DNA of 64,000 nt, from IMG/VR virus record IMGVR_UViG_3300030430_004105, positions 19,219 through 83,218 of that record, one strand, 5' to 3'. The translations under genes were made by a program, and so were the position numbers. The number at the start of each line of letters is the position of its first letter. Within the stretch, counting starts at the first letter, position 1. The stretch comes from a virus. The notes under the pieces are model-generated. The model was not told the origin of the DNA, did no database searches, and saw only the letters and a list, made by a program, of their open reading frames with translations. Below, piece after piece: positions 21,701-41,321 of this stretch.

Positions 21701-24700
21701 ATACATTTTTACATACTCTTCAGGTTCTGATGGTATTACAAGATTGTCAGCATATGTGGCTGCCTCTCGCTTATATTCTTTCTTGATCGGATCAAATATG
21801 GCATCGATCACCACGTCGTTTGCAAAATCCATTGCTGGAATATCACTAGGCGATGGCATAAAAGAATCTGGATCACTGTTAAATGGCAAGTCAATATTGC
21901 CAGTTTTACCTATCGCATCAGACACATTATCTTTAATTTTATCTAATAAGTCTTGCATAATTTGTGCTATATCGTCTTCGCTGATTCCTTCATAATTTTC
22001 AGCCAATTCTTCACCCAGTGTCTTGACATCAGGATATGGAGATAGTCCATAATTCAATCCTAGGTTTTCACAAAGTTCTCCAATTGGAGCCCTACTGTCG
22101 TATATTGACTCTATCTCATCGATCAAATCTAGATCAACTAGTTCTGAGCATGTCTCCGAAACAGATTTTACTAATTCTTTGTCTAATATCAACTTCATTT
22201 TTGGATCTTGAACTAAAGCAAATATTTTTGAATACTCTCTGTCATCCGTATTACCTCTCATAAATTCAAAAACTTCTTTGGGCTTAAGTCCATCTGATAT
22301 TTGCTGCAACATATCTGCTATGTCTTGCTTAGAAATCGACAAGTCTCCCAATGAAGGCAAATCAATAGGATCCAAAACCCCTATTTTAATTCCAAGTTCT
22401 TCTATATCGCTACCTGTTCCGGTAATGTCTTCGAGTCTTCTCCTAGGAAGGAACTCAAAGTCTTTAAAATCAGGTAAAGTAAATGATGAGTTGCTTCTAG
22501 TTTCGCCTCTTCTCTTTAGTTCAGACAGTAAAGAATTTAGTTTGCCTTCAAATTTAGGCAACAAGCCTTCCAAGGCAAGATCAAATCCTGTTCCATTGCT
22601 AGCATCGAACAGTTCGCTTATACTTTCTCCACCAAAATCCGGAACGGACAAATCGAGCCCTCCTCTAAGAGATTCTAAGAGATTGTTCAATAAAATCTTA
22701 AAAGATGATACAAGGCTAGCCTCAATACCACTTTTTATATTGCTCTCGATTTGTTCCATGACACTTCCAAAAATGTCATCAATTCCACCAATTTCAAAAC
22801 TTGAGAAGTCAAAGTTTGGATTAACTGATTTTAAAGATTGCAGAGAAAAGCCTTTGTCAGATCTATTCAATTCTATGTCAATCCCTACTCCTGAATTTCT
22901 TTTAAACAACTTATTTCTAGTTTTTGACTCTTTATCAAACTCTAATCTGAATTTTGGTATTGATATTAGCGCTTGAAAAAAGTCAGTGCTTCCGTTTTCT
23001 TTGTCTCTTTTGAAGAGCCTTTTTATGCCCAAGTCAATAGGAGTTCTGAGTGAAGAAGATCCCAGTTTTTTTAAAGAAGCCTTAATGTCTAACTTCATTG
23101 ATTGAAAGTCTGGGGGATTCCTCAAAAGTTGCCCAATCTCTGGAAATTGTAAGTCTATTTCAGGGCATGGGTTGGTGAAGGTAGGTATTTCACCCTGTAG
23201 TATTTTACATATTATCTCTCTGGCAGATTCTTTCTCGAATACATCTCTGTACTTAAGATTCAAAAGCAAGGATATACAGTCTGTATAGCCAAGTTCATTA
23301 ATTTTATCTAAAACAAAGTCTGCAGCCTGTGTGGGGAGATTGTCCGTTAACATTCCTTGCAGATTTCCTTGATCATCGTAATGTAATATAAGACTAAGCA
23401 AATTCGTTTCAAATGTTTCTAGAATGGTTTCTATCTCTTCGAATCCAAAATCATAGTTAAGGCATATGTCTTCTAAAATAATCTTAAGATTTTCTTCGGT
23501 AAGGCTCTCAAAAATCATGTCAATCAATCTTTCATATTCCATTTTTTTCATAACTGCCCTAGCAATAATCTCATTGATATCTTGTACTCCCAATTCTTCT
23601 GATGCTTTTTCCAGAAGCAAAGAGGCTAAATCATCGACTGATATCTTGTCAAACACTAATTGATATAACGATTCTAGATCATCTATGTTTGCTATAATCT
23701 CAGGCAAGTTAAGCAAAAAGTTGTCTCCAATTTGATTTCTTGCTTTGCTAAGTATTTGAGACGTAACGTCTTTAAACTGTTCAGATTCTACTAAATTTGA
23801 CAAGTCAAGAGCATCTTTAGCGTCTTTAAAAGGATCTGTATATTGATCTTTAAATTGATTAAATGTATCTTCTAAGTCTGATATTGGAATATTGAGTCCT
23901 AAATTTTCTTTTAACTTGTTGAACAAGATTAAATAATCACCACCAAAGTACGTGGATAGAAATTGTTGCCATGGCATTCCTGATTCTTGAGAGTTCAGAA
24001 TATTTTTTGCATTTAACATCAACTTAGATATTTTTGTGTCAGTCACGAGAGATAGTTTGTTTATACCAATGTTCAAAAACTTGCCGGGATTCTCTCCGTC
24101 AAACATCGTTATATAAGCCAACTCTAAAGTCGTCGGATCAAACCCAAATTCCATTTTTGAGTCTGTGTTCAGATTCTCTAAAACATATCCATTCTCTTTT
24201 AATAAATTTTTAACTCCATTGAAAAACTCAAAGTTTTTGTCAGATAGTTTTTTCAGATCAATACCTTCAACAACCCCACTAAATTTGGAAATACTATTGT
24301 GATTTTTCTTGAGAACCTTACTTAAGTTTGAAATTATATTTGAAAAATCTCTAGATTTAAAATTCACAGACAATACATTTTCATAAAAATTTTGAAAATA
24401 TGCAATATTTCTGTCTGGTAGAGCGTCTAGATACTTTGATTTGATGGACAACACTAATTCATGTGAGGCACCTTTTCTTGTTGGAGTCAATATCTCTTCG
24501 AAGTTTATAAACCCAAATGCATCTCTGAGTTTTCCAATATCCGCATCAGCAACATCTTTGCCATAATAGTCTAGTATCTCTTTTACACCTAGTAGTTTGA
24601 AATCTTCTATTCTGTTCATGACTTCTTCTTTGTTTTTCATTCCGGTATCAAACTTTACCAAATAAGAATCATCTTTAAAAAAAGGAATATTAAATCCTGC

Positions 24701-25153
24701 AGACTTAAAATCCGAAAATCGATCAAAGACTACTCTTTTTAATTTCTTGAACGGCTTAATTCTAGACATTGGATAATCTGGATTATTTAAAAACTGAACA
24801 TCACTCTCTTTCAAAAAGTATCTTTCTTGATTACTATCTTCAAACAGCCCAAACTCAAAATTTTCACCAAGATCTAGTTCTATTGCTTTTAGTTGAATTC
24901 CGTCTGTTAATTGCCCAACAGGCAATGCCCCAGCGTCGAAAGAAGAAAAGATCTTTGTAATTGATTGACAAAAGTGTGTCGCTCCTTCAAAATTAGGTGT
25001 AGGTAATTCAATCTTGCCATCTAGTGGAGGGCTTATAAAGTTCAAATCAGACTCTTCCGAGGTTGATCGAAGTCTTTCCATGTATTCCTCTTTTGCATTA
25101 TCAAGACGCTGTTGGACTGATAATTCTTCTCTTGTCCCTTCTACTCCTGCCAT
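18704..25153 (-). CDS. Very large (2149-residue) virion protein of the baseplate cluster, function unknown
   Basis: A 2149-residue frame with a clean ATG just downstream of a good ribosome binding site (AAAAGGAG). I recognise no enzyme domain. The sequence is rich in Asp/Glu, Asn, Leu and Phe, with long predicted helical stretches (for example around residues 430-640). A central beta-rich part lies near residues 1150-1300 (FEYGDGIVTGFSTEDG, FEINITTDTGDYLYLNN). A hydrophobic segment near residues 1820-1850 (IASLIAFGISNF ... GLMYLATGYLEP) is followed by an acidic C-terminal region. Its position between the spike-like gene and gp25-like gene argues for a baseplate or tail component. It could be a tape measure, but it lacks the obvious repeated coiled-coil pattern. 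The role is inferred only from context. Confidence 0.8.
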   Translation of the reverse strand: MAGVEGTREELSVQQRLDNAKEEYMERLRSTSEESDLNFISPPLDGKIELPTPNFEGATHFCQSITKIFSSFDAGALPVGQLTDGIQLKAIELDLGENFEFGLFEDSNQERYFLKESDVQFLNNPDYPMSRIKPFKKLKRVVFDRFSDFKSAGFNIPFFKDDSYLVKFDTGMKNKEEVMNRIEDFKLLGVKEILDYYGKDVADADIGKLRDAFGFINFEEILTPTRKGASHELVLSIKSKYLDALPDRNIAYFQNFYENVLSVNFKSRDFSNIISNLSKVLKKNHNSISKFSGVVEGIDLKKLSDKNFEFFNGVKNLLKENGYVLENLNTDSKMEFGFDPTTLELAYITMFDGENPGKFLNIGINKLSLVTDTKISKLMLNAKNILNSQESGMPWQQFLSTYFGGDYLILFNKLKENLGLNIPISDLEDTFNQFKDQYTDPFKDAKDALDLSNLVESEQFKDVTSQILSKARNQIGDNFLLNLPEIIANIDDLESLYQLVFDKISVDDLASLLLEKASEELGVQDINEIIARAVMKKMEYERLIDMIFESLTEENLKIILEDICLNYDFGFEEIETILETFETNLLSLILHYDDQGNLQGMLTDNLPTQAADFVLDKINELGYTDCISLLLNLKYRDVFEKESAREIICKILQGEIPTFTNPCPEIDLQFPEIGQLLRNPPDFQSMKLDIKASLKKLGSSSLRTPIDLGIKRLFKRDKENGSTDFFQALISIPKFRLEFDKESKTRNKLFKRNSGVGIDIELNRSDKGFSLQSLKSVNPNFDFSSFEIGGIDDIFGSVMEQIESNIKSGIEASLVSSFKILLNNLLESLRGGLDLSVPDFGGESISELFDASNGTGFDLALEGLLPKFEGKLNSLLSELKRRGETRSNSSFTLPDFKDFEFLPRRRLEDITGTGSDIEELGIKIGVLDPIDLPSLGDLSISKQDIADMLQQISDGLKPKEVFEFMRGNTDDREYSKIFALVQDPKMKLILDKELVKSVSETCSELVDLDLIDEIESIYDSRAPIGELCENLGLNYGLSPYPDVKTLGEELAENYEGISEDDIAQIMQDLLDKIKDNVSDAIGKTGNIDLPFNSDPDSFMPSPSDIPAMDFANDVVIDAIFDPIKKEYKREAATYADNLVIPSEPEEYVKMYFEYGDGIVTGFSTEDGLQVEPVRESFKYNLEFETYYKNLETKLYKKSGNEFIEYEGGIEVVENVSAANYGENKYIKSDDAEKGNIYVKKDTIELQPPDLKGFLRTFEINITTDTGDYLYLNNKRGNNGDVELEYTGSSRVLTISEDECLEDSVSEIKNTQNPYTLFKDNIRSNLNDMYRGQTYKYEIRNDLELIFKNINEHVVKTLRSLYRDYSTLNSVQRLYTMVIDSERVDLLDIESIKNVAKEDYNSNFTFKEGEENQMTKSILQGLVYANFKIYTIELLLRGYFALDLFYNPDDMPNQFPQRVKSAFENDFEDYPDYISKINDIIKYDSIPLQYTSMMEKIYTEVVSEMGLIFEDAKRTAFSLFALEGNDFVYFISPDEDLTTQLLNRYLKGKKYVVNTYFLNQETGEELPRRTNLSALPDELEYQPQRFRLSHLTRLDDVEIDDRFEFAELDITEVNASRQILNYYGRIEEDGSPNYYENSDSLPLVAKTSGSVSQTLLFPIYGEFNRNEGFNVSEIKRSQTLSVIPIFDSDSEDTIVDEFISKYTMFSDLNDIIIATISNEVAKQAPQILTAFASTKDAIRMTFQSLKNSEKTFDNDDKALELSISNYPEESATNPDFSNIARKMALQTVPLILKGIAEKFDTNTQIGSTIRTGADLAGIYIPPQIASLIAFGISNFTIPPNPIGLMYLATGYLEPKERKRIKEMVNNRNTKQDVATGDTDSILEQLENVNRIVEEQMRQEELDIYTSVIETFINEYKAIEDLYFEGGYPEDTDGYPQPKDGRNRDDVFPTRDLTSITESAFSPSGSLSERLEQLITRASDLLLQYALLIGFNLLDNEEFSDDAIEKELFVQEDFTKFKLFLQNSLKANFWICEGLNMIALIYYNTNPAVEDVYPPPQEKPVDIDVTYNPRSGGKSATDIYSNYESKRDSEKRNYLEVVDKTATKTRHKLAKWKYSSHEIFDQTETYTYDIWTQLITYVSDKVIPYLKDNGY

Positions 25154-30215: not shown

Positions 30216-30246
30216 ATTATACGATTCAGATATCGATTTTATTCAA
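30216..30246 (-). promoter_or_regulatory. Phage promoter-like element before the sigma/baseplate genes
   Basis: Reads TTGAATAAA, 16 bases, TATAAT on the minus strand, with GAATCG directly before the TATAAT. It lies 19 bases upstream of the ATG at 30197 and overlaps the last codons of the GDPD-like gene. It matches seven other copies in this window. Confidence 0.8.
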
Positions 30247-30687
30247 ATATTTTGTTACATAATCCGTACAAATGTAATCGTACTTCTGTTCGTCAATATC
30301 CGGATATCTTTCTGGGAATAGAAACACAGTGTTTTTGCCACTAGTCTCTTTATTAGGGTATGCCCAGATATGCCCTTTAGATGTTATTGTATAATCATCT
30401 TCTTGGTGCCAAAAACAATGTATTTCAGAAGCCAACATTCGCTCTAGAGCATCTTTGTTTTTAGCATGGCACCAAAGCCCTTCTTGCTTAAGGAAAGTCT
30501 CTTGGATTTGATATTTGGGACTGTCATGTCCTAACAAATATTTTTCATCGATATACCAAACATCTATTTCAACATGAAAACCAGAATCCAGCAATGCTTG
30601 GATCGCTGCTGGGTGGTTTTCTACGGTTGTATCTTCTCCTTCGGTATATGCTCTGTGAGAAATAATTATCACTCTGTTAATCCCCAT
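30226..30687 (-). CDS. GDPD-like phosphodiesterase, short form
   Basis: A 153-residue protein with the catalytic pattern of the glycerophosphodiester phosphodiesterase/PI-PLC-like barrel: SHRAYTEG (His-Arg), VENHPAAIQ (Glu-Asn), VEIDVWY (Glu-x-Asp) and GHDSP (His-Asp). The usual family length is about 240 or more, so this is a short form, although the C-terminus (YICTDYVTKYLNKI) still resembles a final barrel strand with its substrate loop. It overlaps the RuBisCO-like gene by 19 bases and closes the sugar operon. It could release a glycerol- or polyol-phosphate from a lipid or polymer precursor (inference). Confidence 0.78.
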   Translation of the reverse strand: MGINRVIIISHRAYTEGEDTTVENHPAAIQALLDSGFHVEIDVWYIDEKYLLGHDSPKYQIQETFLKQEGLWCHAKNKDALERMLASEIHCFWHQEDDYTITSKGHIWAYPNKETSGKNTVFLFPERYPDIDEQKYDYICTDYVTKYLNKIDI

Positions 30688-31859
30688 TTTTCAATTGCGA
30701 TGTGATATTCTTCGCCATATTCCTTGTCAATTGATTGCCTCATAGCCATCGCTCCGCTCTTGGATCCATTAGGGTGTCCGTGAATCGCTCCTCCGACATT
30801 AGCCATATAGTCCAATCCAAAACGCTTGTTGATGGCTTTTACAAGCCCAGCATGCATACCACAACTGAGGGCTGGCATTACATTTCTATTATGAAGAACG
30901 TCCAAAGTATTCTTAAGTTCGTCTTCGTTGTCAGACATATACCCTCCCCACATTCCAGCGTGAATAAAATCAACTCCCATCAAGCCAGCAAGATCACAAA
31001 TAACATCCCAAGAGATGTGATAGTCATGAGATTTATTAGTCAAAACTTTGTCTCCGCTTTTCTGAAAGTGTATGAACATAGGAAGATCCAACTCTCTGAT
31101 CGATTTGTAAACTCCCAGTCCACTCCAAAAATTAATGTGTACTGCGTTTGCTCCAAGTTCATATACCCTCTTTACTCTATCGATAACATGATGAGGATCA
31201 CAATTTATACAAACTGCATAGACAACATTCTTATCCTTCAAATATTCCATAATCTTTGGAACCCTTTCTTCGATTGGGCAGCATGCAGGATTAGACATGA
31301 TCTCATCTTCTTTGATGAAATTGATTCCACCTTCTACCATTTCTTTAACCATCTCTAGCAAGACATCACTGTTGACACCAATCTTAGGCTTCACGATCCC
31401 TCCAAATAGTGGTTTATCGTGAGCACCAGTAAAGTCTCTAATACCATCAATTCCATATTTCGGCTTCATGAAATAATTATCTTCTATATGCTGTGGAAAG
31501 TCCACTTCCAAAAGATGACATTTGGTAACAATATCGATATCCATTTGTCCTCCCATAAACTGGCACAGCAAATGTGAAACGCCATCAGACTCAAAGTCAG
31601 TGTTGGCAATAGGAAAGGCAATTGTTACCTCTCCCTCTTGTTTTGTTTTAAGTACTTCTTCGTTACCAATCACAAAACAAGAGTGATTTTCAAACAACTC
31701 ATCTGTTTCCCAATGGTTTCGGACATTAGGGTTTCCAACACTCTGTCCTATGCTCAAACCCCATGCAGCATCTCTTAAAGTTTCATTAGAAGATAAAAAA
31801 TATCTACATAAAATGTATTTCTCTCTATCTATCTCGTCTATTGTTCTAAAAATTTTCAT
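30669..31859 (-). CDS. RuBisCO-like protein (form IV type), phage-encoded
   Basis: A 396-residue protein that aligns with RuBisCO large subunits by its motifs. GGIVKPKIG gives K157 and K159 (K175/K177 in spinach). GGINFIKEDE gives K183, D185 and E186 (carbamylated K201, D203, E204). PMFIHF gives H264 (H294), DFIHAGMWGGY gives H300 (H327), PALSCG gives S332 (S379), and NVGGAIHGHP gives G356/G357 (G403/G404). The loop-6 position of K334 is Tyr307, and the N-terminal Glu60/Thr65 region reads GQSVGNP. True carboxylation is therefore unlikely, while Mg-dependent enolase, decarboxylase or isomerase chemistry on a sugar phosphate remains possible. It overlaps the nucleotidyltransferase upstream by 4 bases and the GDPD gene downstream, so it belongs to the sugar operon. 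Assignment to the family is strong; the reaction is unknown. Confidence 0.93.
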   Translation of the reverse strand: MKIFRTIDEIDREKYILCRYFLSSNETLRDAAWGLSIGQSVGNPNVRNHWETDELFENHSCFVIGNEEVLKTKQEGEVTIAFPIANTDFESDGVSHLLCQFMGGQMDIDIVTKCHLLEVDFPQHIEDNYFMKPKYGIDGIRDFTGAHDKPLFGGIVKPKIGVNSDVLLEMVKEMVEGGINFIKEDEIMSNPACCPIEERVPKIMEYLKDKNVVYAVCINCDPHHVIDRVKRVYELGANAVHINFWSGLGVYKSIRELDLPMFIHFQKSGDKVLTNKSHDYHISWDVICDLAGLMGVDFIHAGMWGGYMSDNEDELKNTLDVLHNRNVMPALSCGMHAGLVKAINKRFGLDYMANVGGAIHGHPNGSKSGAMAMRQSIDKEYGEEYHIAIEKWGLTE

Positions 31860-32578
31860 AATTCCTCCAATTTTGTTAAAAAATTATTTAGTTCTTCAGG
31901 AGTTCCCATTCCCCTCATTTCATACACTGGATAAGGTTTAACAACCCCTCCTCTTGAGTTTATTAATATATTATACACTGGGCATATATAAAACTCATTG
32001 TTAAATCTAACGTTTCTAGATATCATCTCTTCGGCACAAGAAACATACTCTGATCCTTTAGCCCAATAATACATTCCAACTGTTGCAAAGTTACTTATCA
32101 CTTGCTTTTCGGCAACTTGTGTAATGTTTCCTGTATTATAGTCTACTCTTGAATACGAGTGCTTTGGGCTATCAGATAAGAAAAACGGTATGCAACCATC
32201 CAAACCTTTACAATAGTTCTGGAAGTGTTTAGGATCCCAATCAACCCATTGATCCGCATTTGCAATAAATAATGGCTCGTCATTATCAATATACTCTTTG
32301 GCTAGCAATGTTGTACATGCAGCACCCTCAGTTAAGCCATCTATCTCAACTAAAACAGAATTTTTTACACAATTTCGCAAATACTCTTTCATCTTTGGGT
32401 ATTTTTCCATGTGTTGTTTTTGGACTATGAAAATGTGTTCATTTTCAGGTAATCCAATATTTTCAATGACTCTTTGAATCATTGGTTTTCCGGCTACATC
32501 TATTAAAGGTTTAGGATCTGAGTAACCTGCTTTAAAAAATCTAGATCCTGCTCCTGCTAATGGTATTAATACTTTCAT
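31856..32578 (-). CDS. Sugar-phosphate nucleotidyltransferase
   Basis: A 240-residue protein with the nucleotide-binding start VLIPLAGAGSRFFKAGYSDP and KPLIDVAGKPMI of the NTP_transferase family. A metal-binding FIANADQWVDW segment and a late GTPEELNNFL helix follow. It should couple an NTP with a sugar or polyol phosphate. The base and sugar cannot be read from motifs. It is shorter than long GDP-mannose pyrophosphorylases and resembles small enzymes placed in capsule and phage sugar clusters. It overlaps the RuBisCO-like gene by four bases, so one may prepare the other's substrate. Confidence 0.85.
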   Translation of the reverse strand: MKVLIPLAGAGSRFFKAGYSDPKPLIDVAGKPMIQRVIENIGLPENEHIFIVQKQHMEKYPKMKEYLRNCVKNSVLVEIDGLTEGAACTTLLAKEYIDNDEPLFIANADQWVDWDPKHFQNYCKGLDGCIPFFLSDSPKHSYSRVDYNTGNITQVAEKQVISNFATVGMYYWAKGSEYVSCAEEMISRNVRFNNEFYICPVYNILINSRGGVVKPYPVYEMRGMGTPEELNNFLTKLEEL

Positions 32579-32587
32579 TTTTTCTCC

Positions 32588-33331
32588 TTAAAGTTTGTAT
32601 GCCCATCTTACCAATGGCACCATTCCATCTTCTTTATTTTTGTAATAATTGTCATATTTTTTTTGTATCATAAAGTTACCCATGTCTTCGAATAACCCCA
32701 GTTCTCTTAAATGCCTAGCGGCAATCATATGGTTAGAATCTAGTCCGTATGTTTCTAAAATATCATAAATTCTAGTAAAATTATACATATTATCGGAATT
32801 TGCAACAAACAATAGATCCCCAACTTCATAGTAATGAGACTCTCTATCGCAGCAAGAACCACGACATATTTCTGGATTGTACATATGTATTGGATCTGAG
32901 CCATTGTGATAAAATCTTTTCATGTCTAATCTGGAATCTTCAAAGTCAATCTTTTCTTGCAATGCTAAATCAAATCTAGATAATAATACGATATCGTACT
33001 TTATATTATGTTTTTGTTCATACTTTCTCATAACATCTAAAGATCGTTTGATAGAATACCAATTGCTTTTTATGGCAAATTGTCTAGTACTAAGATTAGA
33101 GCCAAAATCAATTTGATCTTGAAAAATACATCCTTTTGGATTATACATAGAAACCAACTCATCTTTAAATTGTCTATCCCAGCAATGAAAAAACACATCA
33201 ACATCATTATGATCTAACAAGTTCTCTTTCCAATGTTTAAACCCAATCTTTGCCGCATTCATATTCTGCCGTCCTAAAACATACTTTTTATTATTTCCTA
33301 CTTTTCCTCTCATACATAATGCTATTTTCAT
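32588..33331 (-). CDS. Putative glycosyltransferase-like protein of the sugar operon
   Basis: A 247-residue protein starting KIALCMRGKVG. The strand-loop YDIVLLSRFDLAL, with R-x-D, is reminiscent of the nucleotide-sugar binding and metal site of GT-A-like transferases in phage and bacterial capsule clusters. An HNDVDVFFHCWD segment precedes it. No membrane segment is seen. It lies three bases from the PhyH gene and nine from the nucleotidyltransferase. The family is not firmly recognised; the transferase call rests on the strand motif and neighbours. Confidence 0.6.
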   Translation of the reverse strand: MKIALCMRGKVGNNKKYVLGRQNMNAAKIGFKHWKENLLDHNDVDVFFHCWDRQFKDELVSMYNPKGCIFQDQIDFGSNLSTRQFAIKSNWYSIKRSLDVMRKYEQKHNIKYDIVLLSRFDLALQEKIDFEDSRLDMKRFYHNGSDPIHMYNPEICRGSCCDRESHYYEVGDLLFVANSDNMYNFTRIYDILETYGLDSNHMIAARHLRELGLFEDMGNFMIQKKYDNYYKNKEDGMVPLVRWAYKL

Positions 33332-33334
33332 CTC

Positions 33335-34219
33335 TTACTCCCTTATATATAACCTAGATGCATACTTCACTAATTCACTTAATTCATTCCATTTAGAATA
33401 TCGATACGATTTATAATTGAATATCGGAACTGGGTTGTAACTATATTGCAACTGCAGAATCAGTCTTGGTTTAGTCTTAGGCACAGTGCCTCTATGAATT
33501 CCATATGTGTCAGCAAACCAACTAGTTCCCGATTCTCCTGAAATAGTCTTTGCCAGATCACGACTGAAGTATTTGAAAACTTGCTCGTCTGAATATCTCA
33601 CAATCTCAAACATGTCTTTTGGGAGATCGTCTTCTGTATGGCTCCTCTTTACATACACCTGCTCTCCTTCGCCCAGTTCCACATCACTAAGTAACACAAA
33701 AAATTTCACAAACTTATAATCGTCAGCATCTCTATGGAACAACTGCATGTTAATTGGCTCGCTCACATCTTGAGGAAAACTCCACATTGGAAGAACCAAT
33801 GAAAGAGTTGCAGGGCATCCCAAATAACTAGATGCCATTTTTGTCAACCTTTCGTTAGTAATTAATTCGATCATATTAGGGCATAATAGATTATCTTTTA
33901 TCGTGTGTCTCCCAAGTTTAATGTTCTTAGGTATATTTGCCAAATCAAATTTTTGATGGCTACCATAGAAATCATAACAAGGTTTTGTTAAAAAATATTT
34001 GTACATATCCTGTGATTGATCTTGATCAAGAACGTTATCGATTATCATGACACCGTTTTTTCTCAACTCTTCACAGTCCATGTTAAAATCAAATTTGTAC
34101 TCAGTCACAAGTCTGTTACAAGTTTCCATAGATCTGGAATGTCTTGTTGCAAGATCCAGAGTTGCTCTCTGTTCTTCCCACTCAGGAGTAGGAAACTTGA
34201 GTATCCAATTTTCAAACAT
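33335..34219 (-). CDS. Phytanoyl-CoA dioxygenase-like Fe(II)/2-oxoglutarate oxygenase
   Basis: A 294-residue protein. The metal-binding facial triad is visible as H162-x-D164 (QLFHRDADDY) and H242 (YGIHRGTVP). R252 (KPRLIL) stands where the 2-oxoglutarate-binding Arg is found in the PhyH family. The N-terminal VMIIDNVLDQDQSQDMYKYF is the usual PhyH entry helix. Such enzymes hydroxylate or otherwise oxidise small substrates and are frequent in sugar and natural-product clusters. The probable substrate is an intermediate or a finished glycan of this operon. It overlaps the phosphatase gene by eight bases. Confidence 0.88.
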   Translation of the reverse strand: MFENWILKFPTPEWEEQRATLDLATRHSRSMETCNRLVTEYKFDFNMDCEELRKNGVMIIDNVLDQDQSQDMYKYFLTKPCYDFYGSHQKFDLANIPKNIKLGRHTIKDNLLCPNMIELITNERLTKMASSYLGCPATLSLVLPMWSFPQDVSEPINMQLFHRDADDYKFVKFFVLLSDVELGEGEQVYVKRSHTEDDLPKDMFEIVRYSDEQVFKYFSRDLAKTISGESGTSWFADTYGIHRGTVPKTKPRLILQLQYSYNPVPIFNYKSYRYSKWNELSELVKYASRLYIRE

Positions 34220-34808
34220 GTTTTATTTCCTTTAAGCAATTTTCGTGAAAGAAGTACACAGTGTCTTGTTTGTGCTTCAAAGGTAGTGTTTCTTCTGGGT
34301 GTAAGTTCATGAGTTTACCTCTCATTACTTTTGAAACCATCTCATGACATATAAAAATAATTTTTTGTCCCTCATATTTATCTAAAACAGATGATATTCT
34401 CTCACTTAATAATTCGTAACTCTCTCCCATCGGCACAATGTAGTGCCAATAATTACCTTTTTTGTACCTTCTGTCCAAAAACCCCGGAAAGTCTCTTTCT
34501 ATCTCTTCTTCTGTCTTTCCTTCCCAAAGCCCAAAGCAGTGTTCCTTTAAGTTTTCTTCTGTTATACACTGCATAAAATCAACACCTAGAGATTCACATA
34601 TTATGCTAGCATATTGCTGACATCTCCATTGAGGTGATGTAATAAATTTATATTCTCCTATATCTTTTCCTTCAAACTCCCTTTTGATCAAATCTGCTGT
34701 TCTTTTTGCTTGATCAATTCCTTTAATAGTCAGAGGAGAGTCTTTTTGTCCCTGCTTTCTTTTAGCCAAATTCCACACAGTCTGTCCATGTCTAATAATA
34801 TAAATCAT
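34212..34808 (-). CDS. Histidine phosphatase (phosphoglycerate mutase-like)
   Basis: A 198-residue protein with the active-site start MIYIIRHGQTVWN (RHG, catalytic His), SPLTIKGIDQA, TSPQWRCQQYA (second Arg), GLWEGKTEEE, and the late IIFICHEMVSKVMRG, where His stands in the second-His position. Members dephosphorylate sugar phosphates. It overlaps NeuB-like and PhyH genes and could remove a phosphate from the condensation product or its precursor, as dedicated phosphatases do in nonulosonate and KDO pathways. Confidence 0.9.
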   Translation of the reverse strand: MIYIIRHGQTVWNLAKRKQGQKDSPLTIKGIDQAKRTADLIKREFEGKDIGEYKFITSPQWRCQQYASIICESLGVDFMQCITEENLKEHCFGLWEGKTEEEIERDFPGFLDRRYKKGNYWHYIVPMGESYELLSERISSVLDKYEGQKIIFICHEMVSKVMRGKLMNLHPEETLPLKHKQDTVYFFHENCLKEIKHV

Positions 34809-35647
34809 ACGTACTTCATATCCTTGAGAAAATCCAATTCCTCTTTATGAAACTCAGTCAGTCCAGCATTATTCTCTAGAATCAATTTATCTATCGTTTC
34901 ATTCATTTCTCTGTACTTTTCTGGTGTCAGAGCGCAACCTAAATGGTGGATACCCCAATCTAAAGAGAGAGAAAAGTGTCTTTCAATCATTCTGGCGCCT
35001 TGGAGAGTTGCTAAAATAGATGGTGCATATCCAATTTCATGCCCAGAATACCCTATCTTTATATTATCACTTTCAAATTTGTTCCGAAGGTGTGTTATAT
35101 AAGTGATATTTGACTTGCCATCTGGTGTTGGGTAAATCGAAACTGTATGAAGCAAGAATGCTTTAAGTTTAAATCTATTAATTTTATTAACTAACTTTGA
35201 AACAAACTCATCAGACTTTCCACCCAAACTTATTATTAGTGGCTTATCCTCCTTAGCGCACAAAGTCATAACCTTATCAACTAATTCTGTTTTACCAGCA
35301 TCCATACTAGCAACTTTGTAGAAAGGAGGATCAAAAGTTTTAATGAATTCAAGCCCCTCTTCGTCATGTACAGTGCAGAACCATCTTATTCCTTTTGAAT
35401 TGCAGTAATTTGCTAAATATTCAAAATCTTCTTTACTTAACTCCAAAGATCCTCGATATGTCTTAAAATCAAAATTTCTCCATTTTTTACCATCGTCTTT
35501 GTAATATTTTTTAACATTCTTGAATTTAAGTTTAATTAGATTTGCCCCACCGGATACGGCTTCGTCAATCATTTTTTGAGCAATTTTAACCATACCTAGG
35601 TGGTTAATACTCAACTCTGCCACCATAATAGGTTTTTCAATTACCAT
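34805..35647 (-). CDS. NeuB-like nonulosonic acid synthase lacking the SAF domain
   Basis: A 280-residue TIM-barrel protein with NeuB signatures: VAELSINHLGMVKIAQKMID, GANLIKLKFKN, FYKVASMDAG, LLHTVSIYPTP, IGYSGHEIGY and MIERHFSLSLDWG (Glu-Arg-His-Phe). NeuB enzymes condense phosphoenolpyruvate with an N-acylated aldose to give sialic, legionaminic or pseudaminic type acids. The usual length is about 340-350 because of a C-terminal antifreeze-like SAF domain; that domain is absent here. It lies between the RraA-family gene and the phosphatase with short overlaps. No NeuC-like epimerase is visible, so the aldose is unknown. Confidence 0.88.
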   Translation of the reverse strand: MVIEKPIMVAELSINHLGMVKIAQKMIDEAVSGGANLIKLKFKNVKKYYKDDGKKWRNFDFKTYRGSLELSKEDFEYLANYCNSKGIRWFCTVHDEEGLEFIKTFDPPFYKVASMDAGKTELVDKVMTLCAKEDKPLIISLGGKSDEFVSKLVNKINRFKLKAFLLHTVSIYPTPDGKSNITYITHLRNKFESDNIKIGYSGHEIGYAPSILATLQGARMIERHFSLSLDWGIHHLGCALTPEKYREMNETIDKLILENNAGLTEFHKEELDFLKDMKYV

Positions 35648-36291
35648 CTTCCCATTTCCTCCACTATTTGTTCAAATGTTTTTTCCGTTTCATTAATCAA
35701 GAAACGAACTCTTTTTTCTCTTTCTAATTGTTCCAGTGCAATCGATTTAAATCTATCTTTAAGATCAGATCTTACAATTATAACACCATCTCTACTAGCA
35801 AACGAGTAATCATTTGGGGTTATCTTCACCCCCTCTATTTCAATATCAATCTGATATCTCGTCAAAGCCCAATAGTCTAAAGCATCAATTGGATTTTCGT
35901 CTTTACAAAACACAGGAAAATCTAGTTGATCAATAATATCGATATCTCTAACTACTCCATCTGTCACAAAACCTTTTGCTCCGAGTTTCTTATATATTAA
36001 AGAAGTTATATCACCACTATGTGCTACTTTGTCGTCATTCGCTTGTAAATAGACAATTGGATTATTCGCAAACATACTTGGCTTATACATATCAAGCCTT
36101 ATATTGTCTAGTTTTGAATAATCTACTTTCCAATCTCGTACCACTTCTCCATAAGTAGTGAAACAATCTCCCTGAATAATCGAGGTATAGCCACACTTGG
36201 GCTTTATATTAATATAAAAATCTTTATATTGTTCACCCATCAGCCTTAACGAATCATATACTATACCCATATAAATATCATTTGGTAACAT
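35641..36291 (-). CDS. RraA-family protein (HMG/CHA aldolase-like)
   Basis: A 216-residue protein with the RraA-family core HSGDITSLIY, GAKGFVTDGVVRDIDII (the conserved G-x-V-x-D-G-x-x-R-D, with catalytic Arg and Asp) and LDFPVFCKDENP, followed by GVKITPNDYSFASRDGVIIV, equivalent to the V-x-P-G-D ... D-G-V strand. The family includes 4-hydroxy-4-methyl-2-oxoglutarate aldolases, oxaloacetate decarboxylases and the RNase E inhibitor RraA. With the active-site residues present and with NeuA and NeuB on both sides (overlaps of 14 and 7 bases), an aldolase or decarboxylase role in the sugar pathway is more likely than RNase control. Confidence 0.83.
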   Translation of the reverse strand: MLPNDIYMGIVYDSLRLMGEQYKDFYINIKPKCGYTSIIQGDCFTTYGEVVRDWKVDYSKLDNIRLDMYKPSMFANNPIVYLQANDDKVAHSGDITSLIYKKLGAKGFVTDGVVRDIDIIDQLDFPVFCKDENPIDALDYWALTRYQIDIEIEGVKITPNDYSFASRDGVIIVRSDLKDRFKSIALEQLEREKRVRFLINETEKTFEQIVEEMGRW

Positions 36292-36946
36292 TCATCAACC
36301 TCTCAATTAATTCTAGATCTTCATTGACATTTATATCTAAAGATTCAATTTTTGAAACCCCTATCATCATTGGGCTCTCTCCAACTCTTGTCTTGTTTTT
36401 AAGTAGAGAATCTACAGTTATGCCGTAAAGTCCGTGTGTCTCCATTTTCAAGATATCTAATTCAAAACTGTTAGGCAGTTCTTTGGTTGAAAAATTATAA
36501 GATTTCCCATCTTTCCAGAAATACTCTTGAACATCTACAGTCGTGAAAAAAGAATCGTGATGAGGAAGTCCGTGGTTAACAAATCTTTCAATGCAAAAAT
36601 CTATAGTTTCAGATCTTAACAATGGTGAAGTGCAAAATGTCTGCAATAGTATGTCACATTCGTCAACGCTGTGAAGTCCGTATATCATCATTTCATTGGC
36701 ACCTATGTCATTTGTTGCGAGACTAGGGTGTCTTTTGATTAATTTCAATCCTCTAGAAAAAAGCGACTTTACACTAGCAATGATATCGTCACTTTCAGTA
36801 TCTAGATAAACGTTGTCTATGTTTTCACATTTGAGTGCTTTTTCACATGCAAGAAAAACCAATGTCTTTCCATTGATTTCGTACAAATTTTTATTTTTTA
36901 TCCTTTTGCTAGTTCCTTTAGCAGGGATAATTAAATTGATTTTCAT
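36278..36946 (-). CDS. NeuA-like CMP-nonulosonate cytidylyltransferase
   Basis: A 222-residue protein with the CMP-sugar synthetase start INLIIPAKGTSKRIKNKNLY (the P-A-x-G-x-S-K-R-I-x-x-K-N loop that binds CTP), NVYLDTESDDI, and LLQTFCTSPLLRSETID, equivalent to the Q-x-T-S-P-L-R motif. These enzymes activate nonulosonic acids or KDO with CTP. The full-length match to a single-domain NeuA and adjacency to a NeuB-like gene indicate a CMP-activated acidic sugar as operon product. Confidence 0.9.
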   Translation of the reverse strand: MKINLIIPAKGTSKRIKNKNLYEINGKTLVFLACEKALKCENIDNVYLDTESDDIIASVKSLFSRGLKLIKRHPSLATNDIGANEMMIYGLHSVDECDILLQTFCTSPLLRSETIDFCIERFVNHGLPHHDSFFTTVDVQEYFWKDGKSYNFSTKELPNSFELDILKMETHGLYGITVDSLLKNKTRVGESPMMIGVSKIESLDINVNEDLELIERLMNVTK

Positions 36947-37758
36947 ATTTTAAATCTCCGTATTTTTTTAGATAAAAAGCATTTGTCTGATTCATATGCT
37001 TCTATTGAGTTTCCTAGTTTTTCAAAATACTCTGCAAACACTCTAGACAGATTAATCGAATCTAGCATTTCAGAGTTGTATGGCTTTCCACAAGGATTTA
37101 TAGTTTTATTTCTAGATTCTTCATGATAAAAATGCTCAACAAAGCCTTCAATGCTGGGATCTGCATAATCCCACCCTACTGTTTTTACCTTATCAAACCC
37201 TAAATGCAAAGCAAAAAATAACACATTTTCATACATTATACCTGCTCCCCACTCTCTCATTAGTCCTGTTTTTTCAAAAGTATAATTCTCTAAACCATCA
37301 AAATCTTCAAAATATTGTTTTCTAGATAAAGGCATTCTAGTAGGTGTGCCATTACCAGTTGTGTCTCTGTTTATTATTTGTCCAGTAACTCTAGAACAAA
37401 TATCAACTTGTTGATTTTTCCAATACGCTGCTCTAGCAATAACCTCACTATTCCAATCAGATGATCCAATATAAAAACTTTCTTCTTTGTCGGGATAGTA
37501 GACATAGTTATTTGTATTAAAAAAATGAAAATCAATATAGTCTTTAAAAGGAAAATAACTTTGCTTGATAGTCATCAAACAATTGTTTTTCAGTTCTAGT
37601 TTTAACTTTTCTTTATCAATGTCTTTTAGAGATGGGCCGCATCCTAAAATATAACACGTTTGTCCCTTGAATTTGTCTTTAAAGAAAGACAGCCTCTCTT
37701 CATAAGAAGAAAGACTTTTTGCTTCAGCGATTATACTTTTTATATCTTTTTTGTTCAC
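36943..37758 (-). CDS. DUF115/GT42-like putative glycosyltransferase
   Basis: A 271-residue protein, first gene of the operon, with ribosome binding site AAAGAGG before the ATG at 37758. The nucleotide-binding start CYILGCGPSLKDIDKEKLK resembles both GT42 sialyltransferases (G-x-G-P-S-L-x-x-I-D) and the MptE/DUF115 domain of Maf flagellin glycosyltransferases. A later WGAGIMYENVLFFALHLGFD and VGWDYADPSI, followed by HFYHEE, fit the second substrate site of these families. Directly upstream of the NeuA-like gene, it is the natural candidate to transfer the CMP-activated acid. Assignment to a transferase is likely, the exact family less so. Confidence 0.72.
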   Translation of the reverse strand: MNKKDIKSIIAEAKSLSSYEERLSFFKDKFKGQTCYILGCGPSLKDIDKEKLKLELKNNCLMTIKQSYFPFKDYIDFHFFNTNNYVYYPDKEESFYIGSSDWNSEVIARAAYWKNQQVDICSRVTGQIINRDTTGNGTPTRMPLSRKQYFEDFDGLENYTFEKTGLMREWGAGIMYENVLFFALHLGFDKVKTVGWDYADPSIEGFVEHFYHEESRNKTINPCGKPYNSEMLDSINLSRVFAEYFEKLGNSIEAYESDKCFLSKKIRRFKI

Positions 37759-37774
37759 ATAAACCTCTTTATAT

Positions 37775-37805
37775 ATTATACGTTTAAGTTTGTCATTTTA
37801 TTCAA
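37775..37805 (-). promoter_or_regulatory. Phage promoter-like element for the RLP/nonulosonate operon
   Basis: TTGAATAAA, 16 bases, TATAAT on the minus strand, with AAACG before TATAAT. It overlaps the last ten codons and the stop of the GDP-mannose dehydratase gene and is 17 bases from the ATG at 37758. It should make the ten genes 37758 to 30226 a unit. Confidence 0.82.
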
Positions 37806-38780
37806 ATTAATTTGCTCTCTTCTTAGATCTTTCTCGTACATCTCCATTGCAAGTTCTTCAAAATCATATTCAGGCACCCAGCCCAATGTCTTCATCATCT
37901 TGGATGGATCTCCCCATAACTTTGGCACTTCGCAAGGACGATAAAACTTAGGATCAATGACTACGTGATCTTTGATGTCCAGCCCAGCATAGTCAAAAAC
38001 ATACTCTAAAAATTCTTGAACTGAGTTAGTTTTACCAGTTGCTAGCACATAATCATCTGCTACATCGTGCTGAAGCATCATCCACATTCCTTTAACATAA
38101 TCAGCAGCATGTCCCCAGTCTCTTTGGGCAGACAAGTTTCCAAGCCTTAGTTCATCTTGTAAGCCCAACTTGATTCTTGCAGCGGCTTTGGTAATCTTTC
38201 TGGTTACAAAGTTTTCTCCTCGTCTTGGAGATTCATGATTGAAAAGAATACCAGAGCATGCGTAAATCCCATAAGACTTTCTATAAGTGCTTACCATATG
38301 GTGTGCTGCTAATTTAGCACATGCATAAGGCGAGACAGGAGAAAAGTGGGTATCAAGTCCTTGCGGACACTGAGTATTATCACCAAACATCTCGCTCGTA
38401 GATGCCTGATAGAACTTGCAGGATGGCTTCTGGAGCCTTATTGCCTCTAGGGCATACAAACACCCCATCATATTGATCTCAGTCGTACTAACAGGCGTTT
38501 TAAAGGACGTACCGACATGTGATTGAGCAGCCAAATTATAGTATTCATCTGGTTGGTATTCAGATATCAAGCGATAAAGTGAAGAAGAATCTGTTACATC
38601 TGCCTCTTCTAAGATAAAATTACCGTCATCAAGTAAATGAGTTATGTTCTGGCATTTGTTTTCAAAGTCTGAAACTGTTCTTCGATATGTGCCTATAACC
38701 TTGTAGCCCTTATCAATCAGAAGATCTGAAAGATAAGAGCCGTCTTGTCCAGTTACTCCAGTAATTATTGCAGTTTTCAT
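37776..38780 (-). CDS. gmd: GDP-mannose 4,6-dehydratase
   Basis: A 334-residue extended short-chain dehydrogenase with the NADP-binding start TAIITGVTGQDGSYLSDLLI, the Arg-binding loop GTYRRTV, NLAAQSHVGTSF, the catalytic Thr/Glu and Tyr-x3-Lys set (STSEMFGD, YACAKLAAHH), and the Gmd-specific NHESPRRGENFVTRKIT and LGNLSAQRDWGHAADYV. It turns GDP-mannose into GDP-4-keto-6-deoxymannose, precursor of GDP-fucose, GDP-rhamnose or GDP-perosamine. A phosphomannomutase lies at 49210-50013, so part of the supply route is phage-encoded. The C-terminal codons double as the promoter of the next operon. Confidence 0.95.
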   Translation of the reverse strand: MKTAIITGVTGQDGSYLSDLLIDKGYKVIGTYRRTVSDFENKCQNITHLLDDGNFILEEADVTDSSSLYRLISEYQPDEYYNLAAQSHVGTSFKTPVSTTEINMMGCLYALEAIRLQKPSCKFYQASTSEMFGDNTQCPQGLDTHFSPVSPYACAKLAAHHMVSTYRKSYGIYACSGILFNHESPRRGENFVTRKITKAAARIKLGLQDELRLGNLSAQRDWGHAADYVKGMWMMLQHDVADDYVLATGKTNSVQEFLEYVFDYAGLDIKDHVVIDPKFYRPCEVPKLWGDPSKMMKTLGWVPEYDFEELAMEMYEKDLRREQINLNKMTNLNV

Positions 38781-40045
38781 AATAAAAACTCCTCTTCATC
38801 TGGGCTGTCAAATTGTATTCCTAGTTCTTCGTTAAAACGATTAAACCAATACTGCTCACCTTCATAAGAATCTCGAAGTTGCTCAGCCATTTCTGTCCAT
38901 TTGTCAATATTTTCATAAACATCTCTCATTTTACTTTTAGCATCAGCATCATCAATATAAGCCCAACTAGATTCAGCATGAAGAACTCCATCCCAAACTG
39001 CATTTTGAGGAACCTGTCTCAGTTCACACTTAACAGCAGCAAACTTTTTCTTGTATGTTGTGATTTTGCCCCTAGTTTTTCCACCTTTGAGTTTTCCGGG
39101 AGGGTTAATGTCCTCTTTGATGGCTAAAAAGTCTAAGTGTCCACTCCAATCTGTTGCTATAACAGGAAGCCCATTACAAGAAGCCTCATATAAAGGAAGT
39201 CCAAAACCTTCACCATGCGTAAAAGACACAACAGCCTTTACTTTAGGATGATTATATAAACCTTGCATTTGTTCGTCAGATAAATTTCCATGAAGTAGAT
39301 TTATAGAACATTTCCACCCTCCTTCTTTTGCTGTTTTCGAAACTTGCTCAAATTGTTTTTTAATGTTATGGTAGTCCATAACAGAATCGTTTGCCTGATG
39401 AACTTTGAAAAGCAAGCCAACTTCTTCATTCTTGAACTCTTCAAGAAAATTATGTAAAACAGCATCTACATTTTTTCGTGGGCCTAACTGAGCAACACAT
39501 AGAAAGTTGAAATCATGTCTAAGGTTTAGATCCAGTTCTTCTACTTCGATATCTCTCTTAGGAAAACCAACGAACGACATAGGTGTATCGCATTTGTATT
39601 CAGGTATCTTTTGTCCAGTCTTGGTATCAGTTGCTTCATAAGAAGTGTCTCTATAAACTTCCATGCTGTGTTTAGAAATTGTGATAATTTTATCAACCTC
39701 ATTTCCCTTTACCAACCATTCACCAGCAACTCTGTTAGTTTCAATACCTGCTGTATATCCAATATCATGAGGAGATAAACGCTTCCATTCGTTAGGTATT
39801 GTACACTGCACGGTTGCATCATATTGCCCATTGTTCTGCATATACAAAACTGTTTTTTGAAGCAACGCATCAATCAGTTTTCTTTCCTGATCGTCTCTCC
39901 AAATCCATCCTGATCTTCCCCAACTAATATTGTGTACATATAAATCAACTGCGGGGTTTGACATCAATGCCCTAAGAGCAAATCTGCCCATTTCACCATA
40001 TCCGGAACGTGAAAGTACCGGTGCCACTAATAATATTTTTTTCAT
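38777..40045 (-). CDS. GT4-family glycosyltransferase
   Basis: A 422-residue GT-B glycosyltransferase. The N-terminal loop VLSRSGYGEMGRFALRAL is acceptor-side. The donor-side part has FLCVAQLGPRKNVDAVL and the E-x7-E type motif in HGEGFGLPLYEASCNGLPVI, followed by ATDWSGHLDFL. An insertion, GGKTRGKITTYKKK, is present near residue 330. It overlaps both Gmd (ATGA) and the next GT4 gene. The donor is possibly a GDP-sugar made via Gmd. Confidence 0.92.
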   Translation of the reverse strand: MKKILLVAPVLSRSGYGEMGRFALRALMSNPAVDLYVHNISWGRSGWIWRDDQERKLIDALLQKTVLYMQNNGQYDATVQCTIPNEWKRLSPHDIGYTAGIETNRVAGEWLVKGNEVDKIITISKHSMEVYRDTSYEATDTKTGQKIPEYKCDTPMSFVGFPKRDIEVEELDLNLRHDFNFLCVAQLGPRKNVDAVLHNFLEEFKNEEVGLLFKVHQANDSVMDYHNIKKQFEQVSKTAKEGGWKCSINLLHGNLSDEQMQGLYNHPKVKAVVSFTHGEGFGLPLYEASCNGLPVIATDWSGHLDFLAIKEDINPPGKLKGGKTRGKITTYKKKFAAVKCELRQVPQNAVWDGVLHAESSWAYIDDADAKSKMRDVYENIDKWTEMAEQLRDSYEGEQYWFNRFNEELGIQFDSPDEEEFLL

Positions 40046-41307
40046 GCTACCTCCAATAGTCTATAGTTCAAATGCTTTCTGGTTTCCCAAGAACCTTCTT
40101 CTTCATATATTCGCTGCATCAAATCAACCCAAGTTTTTTCGAAAACTTCAAAACTGTAATTTTTTATCACATGTTCTCTACCTGCTCTTCCTAGGGCATC
40201 TCGATACTCTTGATCAGCCATGTACATATCTCTTAGGGCGGACGAAACCTTCTTACCATTTAGTCGATCTTCGTATATGTAAGGCACTTCTTGAGATCCA
40301 ATAATCGCCTTAGAATCAGGCTCCAGTCCAATCCCGAACCAAGTCTCTCCGTCTGTAACCTGTTCTTGTAGTCCGCCTGTCATATTCACAATTATTGGTG
40401 TCCCACAAGAAAGAGATTCAAGCGTTGCCAGTCCAAATCCTTCAGCATCTGATATGTTGATCGTACAGTCTGCTAGATTATAAAACATTGCTAGATTTTC
40501 CATTTGAACTTTGTTAGTAGAAAACAAAATCTGTCCATCAATTAATCCTAAGTTTTGAACAATAGCATTGAGATCTTGCCCATATCCATCTTTGGGATCT
40601 GTGTGCATGATTAATGATGCTTTATCATGTCCAACTTGATCTAGAAAGTCTTTAAACCAATAAATCAAAGAACCGCTCTGTTTTCTTCTAGCATTTCGAT
40701 TGTTCCAAAAAAACAAAAACTTTCCTTTTGAATCGTACTGTTCATCAAACTGTGCTCTAAACTCTTCTATCTGTTCTTTTGGCAAAGGCTTAAAAAAGTT
40801 AGAATCAACAGCATGCGGCACATACTGCTCTTTCACATCAGGTGCAACATTTTGCACAATATCACTTGTAACTTTTGATATAGTTGCAATAAAATCGTTA
40901 GATTCGTAAAACCTCTGGTTATATTTTGGTAGTGGGTAGTTGTCCCACACATGATAATATACCATGGGGATTAAAGAACGAATCTCTGCCTCTATTTCCC
41001 AAAGCCAGCCATAAAAACGAGGATCAGTCATAAAATACAAAATATCAGGACGTTCATTTCTGATAATAGATCTTACGATATCCTGTGTGCCATAGCCATC
41101 GACAGGGAAGATTTTCCATCTTTCACCCCATTGTTCCGTGATCTGTGGCTTATGATCCGGATGCTTGATTGCCCCACCAAGACTGACTACATCAAATTTA
41201 TCAGACTTAAGCAGGGCTTCTATAATATATTTAGTTTGAGTTCCGACACCCGATGGCGATAGTGGGTGATCAGATATAGTCAAAACTTTAATTCTTTTTT
41301 CCGACAT
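40042..41307 (-). CDS. GT4-family glycosyltransferase
   Basis: A GT-B glycosyltransferase of 421 residues from the ATG at 41307, which has AAAGGAG just before it; an upstream in-frame TTG at 41331 is less likely. The start is VLTISDHPLSPSGVGTQTKY; the donor site is ISDAEGFGLATLESLSCGTP with the E-x7-E spacing, followed by IIVNMTGGLQEQV. Domain order and length agree with GT4 enzymes. It is four bases in overlap with the second GT4 gene, so the two probably add successive sugars. Confidence 0.92.
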   Translation of the reverse strand: MSEKRIKVLTISDHPLSPSGVGTQTKYIIEALLKSDKFDVVSLGGAIKHPDHKPQITEQWGERWKIFPVDGYGTQDIVRSIIRNERPDILYFMTDPRFYGWLWEIEAEIRSLIPMVYYHVWDNYPLPKYNQRFYESNDFIATISKVTSDIVQNVAPDVKEQYVPHAVDSNFFKPLPKEQIEEFRAQFDEQYDSKGKFLFFWNNRNARRKQSGSLIYWFKDFLDQVGHDKASLIMHTDPKDGYGQDLNAIVQNLGLIDGQILFSTNKVQMENLAMFYNLADCTINISDAEGFGLATLESLSCGTPIIVNMTGGLQEQVTDGETWFGIGLEPDSKAIIGSQEVPYIYEDRLNGKKVSSALRDMYMADQEYRDALGRAGREHVIKNYSFEVFEKTWVDLMQRIYEEEGSWETRKHLNYRLLEVA

Positions 41308-41321
41308 TTCTTCTCCTTTTG

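Follow-up and report, generated by a model that had tools for sequence, protein, structure and literature searches.

The DNA studied here, referred to below as the window, is a stretch of 64,000 nucleotides forming part (positions 19,219 to 83,218) of the 83,218-base IMG/VR virus record IMGVR_UViG_3300030430_004105. Its source phage is, at least partly, T4-like, with a baseplate wedge gene (phrog_219) and a late sigma factor gene (phrog_234). The minus strand of the window carries a tightly packed operon that includes a gene for a RuBisCO-like protein (RLP). An earlier note on this DNA had placed a 396-residue reading frame at 30669-31859 and described it as lying wholly within a sugar operon of the phage; the coordinates proved correct, the strand being minus, and the neighbouring genes agree with the description. 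The following genes were found.

30226-30687, minus strand: mini-GDPD-like protein (153 aa), half the usual GDPD length, with HRG/EID/GHD metal motifs
31859-30669, minus strand: RLP gene of 396 codons (396 aa), with an ATG start and a GGAGG ribosome site upstream
31856-32578, minus strand: NTP_transferase-family nucleotidyltransferase (NTPT; 240 aa; PF00483, 42 bits; 4evw, E 3e-31)
32588-33331, minus strand: protein of neighbour cluster 4, likely glycosyltransferase-like, which shuffles freely among loci (no Pfam hit)
33335-34219, minus strand: PhyH-like Fe/2-oxoglutarate oxygenase, a by-eye assignment from sequence (no Pfam hit)
34212-34808, minus strand: histidine phosphatase superfamily protein (PF00300)
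34805-35647, minus strand: NeuB family, sialic-acid-type synthase (PF03102)
35641-36291, minus strand: RraA-like/class II aldolase-like protein (PF03737)
36278-36946, minus strand: CMP-sugar cytidylyltransferase-like protein (PF02348)
36943-37758, minus strand: uncharacterised operon gene (weak MptE-like match, below cut-off)
37776-38780, minus strand: GDP-mannose 4,6-dehydratase family (PF16363; TIGR01472, 400 of 415 bits)
38777-40045, minus strand: glycosyltransferase group 1 (PF00534)
40042-41331, minus strand: glycosyltransferase group 1 (PF00534)

The NTPT gene overlaps the start of the RLP gene by 4 bases, and the mini-GDPD gene overlaps its end by 19. NTPT belongs to a broad family; its best solved relative, 4evw, is uncharacterised, and the match to LicC is weak. 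For the mini-GDPD the AlphaFold2 model has a pLDDT of 94.1, and its best Foldseek match is a GDPD with an E value of only 6e-3. Judged by Pfam score together with a full TIM barrel, this protein falls outside the GDPD family PF03009, though the metal motifs are present. The short GDPD-like forms gave no Pfam hit, and such half-length proteins (about 150 residues, with invariant motifs and some further invariant residues) look like a family of their own as far as their sequences go. Further along the operon, a NeuB-like synthase, an RraA-like aldolase and a PseF/CMP-sugar transferase stand in tandem (34805-36946, minus strand).

The RLP scored 116.6 bits against the Pfam RuBisCO_large model PF00016 (cut-off 30.1), and the structure prediction that the earlier note had suggested as a check gave a RuBisCO fold (AlphaFold2, pLDDT 94.7, pTM 0.92). 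By both of these properties it belongs to the RuBisCO superfamily. All 50 Foldseek matches listed for the model were RuBisCO or RLP structures, with TM scores of 0.80-0.89. Amino-acid change relative to the nearest relative is low (dN 0.08, with dS saturated), and thus the gene is under purifying selection.

The active-site comparison rested on an alignment of 114 rows of the RLP clade, 92 of them viral and 22 cellular, in which MtnW, OiaX, form I, archaeal form III and other sequences were included for reference. Form I was represented by Cupriavidus pHG1 and archaeal form III by sequences from Nanoarchaeota genomes. Spinach residue numbers are those which we take to apply, transferred by motifs via form I of Cupriavidus. 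The metal site of the RLP is complete: K183, D185 and E186 correspond to spinach K201 (the carbamate lysine), D203 and E204. These ligands and the two lysines K175 and K177 are invariant in 114/114 rows; spinach S379, G381 and G403 are also kept in every row, and G404 in all rows but one. The residues previously picked out by eye, namely K157-x-K159, the K183/D185/E186 triad, H300 (spinach H327), S332 (S379) and the pair G356-G357, all took their expected places in the alignment. A further one, H264, was only partly right, as the His is present but aligns with spinach H292 and not with the catalytic H294, which is Gln266.

The residues on which carboxylation depends are replaced. Tyr307 stands at the loop-6 lysine K334, as the earlier note had read it, and the alignment with four reference groups puts residue 307 nowhere else. 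This tyrosine is invariant in all viral and cellular rows, as are Gln266, Ser268 and Cys333, the last of these at spinach G380. The catalytic pair H294-R295 is lost, with Gln266-Lys267 in its place; position 295 is Lys in the clade, except for Ser in 13 phages and Arg in one cellular row. The Glu60/Thr65 region, also suspected of being altered, contains Gly38 at spinach E60 and Asn43 at T65, as does the clade at these two positions, and the N-terminal partner-subunit site is therefore changed. Position 300 is His in the clade and Gln in 22 phages. Among the 92 viral rows the noted residues vary only in this His/Gln alternation, in His/Phe at 264 and in Lys/Ser at 267. Such conservation is far beyond chance. 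Thus, the clade lacks the residue set E60, T65, H294, R295 and K334 of form I, II and III carboxylases.

To place the RLP, a tree of 82 rows, 57 of them from the RLP clade, was calculated with IQ-TREE, leaving out form II and IV-Photo references. These 57 rows formed one group with a support of 100/100, set off by a long stem (1.22 changes per column) from the form I, archaeal form III, MtnW and OiaX/rhizobial sequences in the tree. The OiaX/rhizobial RLPs form the neighbouring group (97/87), but the sister group is uncertain because the references have long branches that join close to the stem and form II and IV-Photo are absent. Two carboxylase groups, form I and archaeal form III, were represented in the tree, and the clade is nested in neither. 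Archaeal form III RuBisCO resembles the RLP in its fold (TM up to 0.89) and in the KPKxG and K-x-DE motifs. The suggestion that the RLP may define a distinct branch is upheld among the reference groups sampled, form II not included. In the broad sense of a RuBisCO fold and metal site without the full carboxylase residue set, the protein is a form IV RLP, and the tree supports the earlier assignment to a form IV-type non-carboxylase. None of the NCBIfam equivalog cut-offs was reached: the MtnW models TIGR03332 and NF007095 gave 137.1 of 513.6 and 167.6 of 409 bits, and the OiaX model NF042437 gave 123.3 of 700 bits.

Three sets of cellular sequences branch outside the main phage group: (i) Legionella with Azospirillum, (ii) Elusimicrobia, and (iii) one SAR11 group with nanoarchaea. 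Copies from other SAR11, from Bacteroidota and from Patescibacteria fall within the main phage group. This placement implies that the gene has crossed between phages and cells more than once (with five label changes for phage), and it should be mentioned that some cellular copies from MAG contigs may be viral sequence. The RLP of a Vibrio nigripulchritudo plasmid was not counted as a clade member, since its branch, a very long one, falls outside. Next to this divergent gene (L152, 4818-5963) are an FGGY kinase gene and the two halves of a transketolase.

The RLP is not the one-off oddity that it might have seemed. A single-protein scan of IMG/VR with it revealed 26 loci, whereas a scan with a profile led to 296 confirmed ones, the best 80 being retained; 22 further loci were found in species-representative genomes. 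The cellular carriers are Pelagibacterales, three Legionella isolates, Azospirillum, Elusimicrobia, Pacearchaeota/Nanoarchaeia/Woesearchaeota, Verrucomicrobiia, Bacteroidota and Patescibacteria. In cells the distribution is patchy, with an RLP in 2 of 297 SAR11-order genomes and a near-full-length match in 4 of 22 Legionella genomes, plus one weak partial match. No match to the RLP was found in INPHARED phages (tblastn) or in PHROGs, and the BFVD viral structures contained no RuBisCO fold (TM at most 0.40). Contamination of viral contigs with host genes was rejected as an explanation, since the clade occurs in long viral contigs and a T4-type baseplate wedge gene is present in 8 of the 10 viral records tested. 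A prophage-only origin of the cellular copies was likewise rejected, as a SAR11 copy adjoins a lepA-like gene and the Legionella copies lie among ordinary genes of isolate genomes.

Neighbour clustering and adjacency counts over 116 RLP loci revealed a conserved cassette of four genes, encoding NTPT, a small cupin, the RLP and the mini-GDPD. NTPT is present in 111 of the 116 loci, within 1 kb of the RLP in 97 of them and within 3 kb in all. The cupin (106 residues, with an HxH...E metal motif) occurs in 82/116 loci, in 71 within 100 bp, and the mini-GDPD (about 150 residues) in 90/116. Three of the four genes are found in the window, the cupin being absent there and in its nearest kin. The wider neighbours of RLP loci include methyltransferases, sugar dehydratases/epimerases, glycosyltransferases and acetyltransferases.

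All four genes are contiguous in Elusimicrobia and in Azospirillum oleiclasticum, where the following order was observed (locus L045).

3942-4403: mini-GDPD, followed by the RLP
5647-5982: cupin
About 5967-6749: NTPT

The Azospirillum cassette is directly followed by a PAPS_reduct-domain (cysD-like) gene and a cysN/cysC-like gene (L045, 6771-9568), by eye a sulfate activation set, and the product might be sulfated. In SAR11 the order is GDPD, nucleotidyltransferase-like gene, RLP, nucleotidyltransferase. The second nucleotidyltransferase-like gene of SAR11 (L037, 9225-9965) has a degenerate GxGxR motif and no Pfam hit. In the three Legionella loci inspected the RLP-NTPT pair adjoins a divergent LicD-like gene, confirmed in L. 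maceachernii (PF04991, 6e-44); neither mini-GDPD nor cupin was found in the Legionella genomes tested. A LicD motif search across the RLP neighbourhoods examined gave no further case outside Legionella.

Pairwise distances of the RLP and of its neighbours were compared by Mantel tests, and they support co-inheritance within the cassette. The correlation with the cupin was 0.52 (0.47 for viral loci only), with NTPT 0.54 over all loci and 0.20 among viral loci, the latter within the permuted range, and with the GDPD 0.34 (viral loci only). The glycosyltransferase-like neighbour of cluster 4 gave r -0.02 and epimerases 0.16 or less, while one FkbM methyltransferase group reached 0.58 in 16 loci.

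A cupin-seeded scan gave 453 matches, of which the best 80 were analyzed with flanks of at most 8 kb, so that the following proportions are indicative. Among these best 80 of 453, NTPT was found in 80/80 loci and the RLP in 58/80; the remaining 22 carried the cupin cassette without RLP. Most of these had a second nucleotidyltransferase fused to a C-terminal HAD phosphatase, sometimes at the place of the RLP. Within the same best 80 of 453, the nucleotidyltransferase-HAD fusion was present in 17/22 loci without RLP vs 2/54 with it (6/11 vs 1/27 after dereplication, Fisher p 0.001). Cupin-positive, RLP-less phage loci with HAD-nucleotidyltransferase and/or nucleotidyltransferase-HAD fusions include L172 (6634-9406), L219 (5525-8004) and L220 (6919-8001). 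Since RLP-less cassettes exist, and the window and its nearest kin have no cupin, the steps of the cassette are not rigidly linked.

We incline to the view that the RLP is a catalytic, non-carboxylating enzyme whose biosynthetic cassette supplies an activated building block to the surrounding glycan genes. Proton abstraction adjacent to a metal-bound ketone is the known chemistry of RLPs. As the metal site, K175 and K177 are kept and the carboxylation residues have been lost, the simplest outcome would be that a ketose phosphate is isomerised or epimerised. The best reading, to which we give a similar slight preference, is thus an enolising ketose-phosphate isomerase/epimerase whose product is activated by NTPT for glycan decoration.

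In the order of steps that we infer, Mg2+ held by carbamylated Lys183, Asp185 and Glu186 would bind a 2-keto-3-hydroxy sugar phosphate, with the phosphate in the kept glycine-rich P1 pocket (G334, G356-357). Proton abstraction would give an enediolate which, without E60, H294 and the loop-6 K334, would be reprotonated (isomerisation/epimerisation) and not carboxylated. NTPT would then join the phosphorylated product to a nucleotide; CMP is the likeliest, a guess prompted by LicD in Legionella. A glycosyl- or phosphotransferase would attach the activated unit, and the mini-GDPD would trim or make a phosphodiester. The activation step has a precedent: nucleotidyltransferases acting on non-anomeric ketose or alditol phosphates for surface polymers are described for Campylobacter HS:5 (CDP-6-D-fructose/CDP-glucitol) and for LicC/LicD. 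HS5.18 of C. jejuni forms CDP-6-D-fructose by activating the ketose phosphate fructose-6-P with CTP (PMC10918830), and LicC/PntC follow the same activation logic for surface decoration (PMC6697681). Unlike the cassette, these pathways, as far as those accounts go, include no RLP, cupin or mini-GDPD. Because the minimal shared gene set uses no dehydrogenase or kinase, we would expect the RLP to act on a common sugar phosphate of the host. A surface glycan as the target of the product is suggested by the neighbouring genes, and the operon probably also makes a nonulosonic-acid-type sugar.

It should be mentioned that Lys/Ser in place of R295 and Gln in place of H294 might be just as compatible with another reaction such as decarboxylation or retro-aldol cleavage. 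The RLP could be an OiaX-like sugar-acid-phosphate decarboxylase used biosynthetically, shortening a keto-acid sugar phosphate, which we consider unlikely. The adjoining position of OiaX (3-oxo-isoapionate-4-phosphate decarboxylase) and the rhizobial form IV RLPs in the tree is in line with this. They also share with the RLP the Gln after position 60. The RraA-like and NeuB genes of the window handle keto acids, and a dehydrogenase would be unnecessary if the operon provided the acid. However, neither RraA nor NeuB recurs as a conserved partner of the RLP from locus to locus, OiaX works in a catabolic operon with a sugar-acid kinase, and the OiaX model score is far too low. OiaX also has A, H, Q and K at K177, H294, H327 and K334, so that it keeps H294, R295 and the loop-6 Lys and has lost K177, the reverse of the RLP clade.

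Alternatively, the RLP might act not upstream of NTPT but on a nucleotide-activated sugar or on a phospho-alditol/phosphocholine-like group (Lic-type decoration). This is improbable to about the same degree. LicD adjoins RLP-NTPT in the three Legionella loci, the GDPD-like protein belongs to a phosphodiester enzyme family, and the cassette can occur without RLP. On the other side, RLP pockets take small phosphates, a CDP group would require a rebuilt P1 site, and no choline or ethanolamine kinase was seen among the partners.

The earlier note had named two catabolic parallels, the methionine salvage enolase and an apionate-type decarboxylase. Neither fits, as the RLP has biosynthetic partners (NTPT, cupin, GDPD-like protein, glycan genes) and the residues of its active site are unlike those of MtnW or OiaX. 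The RLP is very unlikely to be a phage-acquired DK-MTP-1-P enolase (MtnW/YkrW) or MTRu-1-P isomerase of methionine salvage. MtnW structures (PDB 2oem, 2oej, 2zvi) are its best PDB matches in sequence and fold (130 bits; 2oem, E 3e-31), sharing the Mg-carbamate site and a length of about 400 residues, at 27% identity and a TM of about 0.85. In contrast, K177, H294, H327 and K334 are Val, Ala, Leu and Ser in MtnW and Lys, Gln, His and Tyr in the RLP, the scores are far below the equivalog cut-offs, the clade is separate in the tree, and no mtn genes occur among the partners. It is just as hard to regard the protein as a non-catalytic structural or regulatory relic: several substrate-binding residues are replaced, but the metal ligands and the two lysines are invariant in 114 rows and purifying selection is strong. 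A working carboxylase/oxygenase feeding host carbon metabolism in infection is next to inconceivable despite the RuBisCO fold, the complete carbamate/Mg site and the retained K175/K177, as E60, T65, H294, R295 and K334 are replaced in all members examined (apart from the single cellular Arg at 295), the clade lies outside forms I and III, and among the glycan genes that surround it neither a phosphoribulokinase nor an AMP-pathway gene was seen.

Returning to the isomerase/epimerase reading, a broader proposition is that the RuBisCO fold has a largely phage-spread biosynthetic branch, in which a new ketose- or enol-derived phosphate and a dedicated NTPT yield a new class of activated sugars for surface or virion glycans. 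We regard this as possible, at somewhat less than even chances. All RLPs whose role has been assigned work, to our knowledge, in salvage or catabolic pathways, and a biosynthetic one that serves glycan assembly, if true, would widen the range of uses of the RuBisCO fold. No phage-encoded RLP, and no RLP tied to nucleotidyltransferase or glycan genes, was found in the literature searched, which left out most subscription papers and preprints.

The Global Ocean Sampling survey of 2007 described 65 RuBisCO homologues in new groups from the surface ocean (PMC1821046), and a later review names an ocean-sampling RLP subgroup IV-GOS (PMC10173188). Going by these papers' descriptions, the RLP clade may overlap IV-GOS, and the GOS homologues could naturally have come from marine phages and SAR11. 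In the text consulted, the GOS groups are not described as viral and no cassette is reported. Even should the viral setting and the cassette be new, the sequences themselves may not be wholly so, as the clade may include GOS groups. If the groups coincide, a biosynthetic RLP of this kind would explain RuBisCO homologues that were left without function in the 2007 marine survey. Because automatic annotation says 'RuBisCO' although the carboxylase residues are missing, the residue comparison also guards against misreading such genes as viral carbon fixation. The question can be tested at the bench, since a cultured Azospirillum has a complete four-gene copy.

Three further features of the window were observed outside the operon. 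On the minus strand at 3-15014 lies a single frame of at least 5,004 codons that runs left past the window and has LamG-like stretches by eye; it probably encodes a giant virion or adhesion protein. An ORF of 2,149 residues (18704-25153, minus strand) adjoins a baseplate-type gene. Finally, the gene at 43460-44884 encodes a PIN-PhoH fusion protein, which is closely matched in PHROGs.
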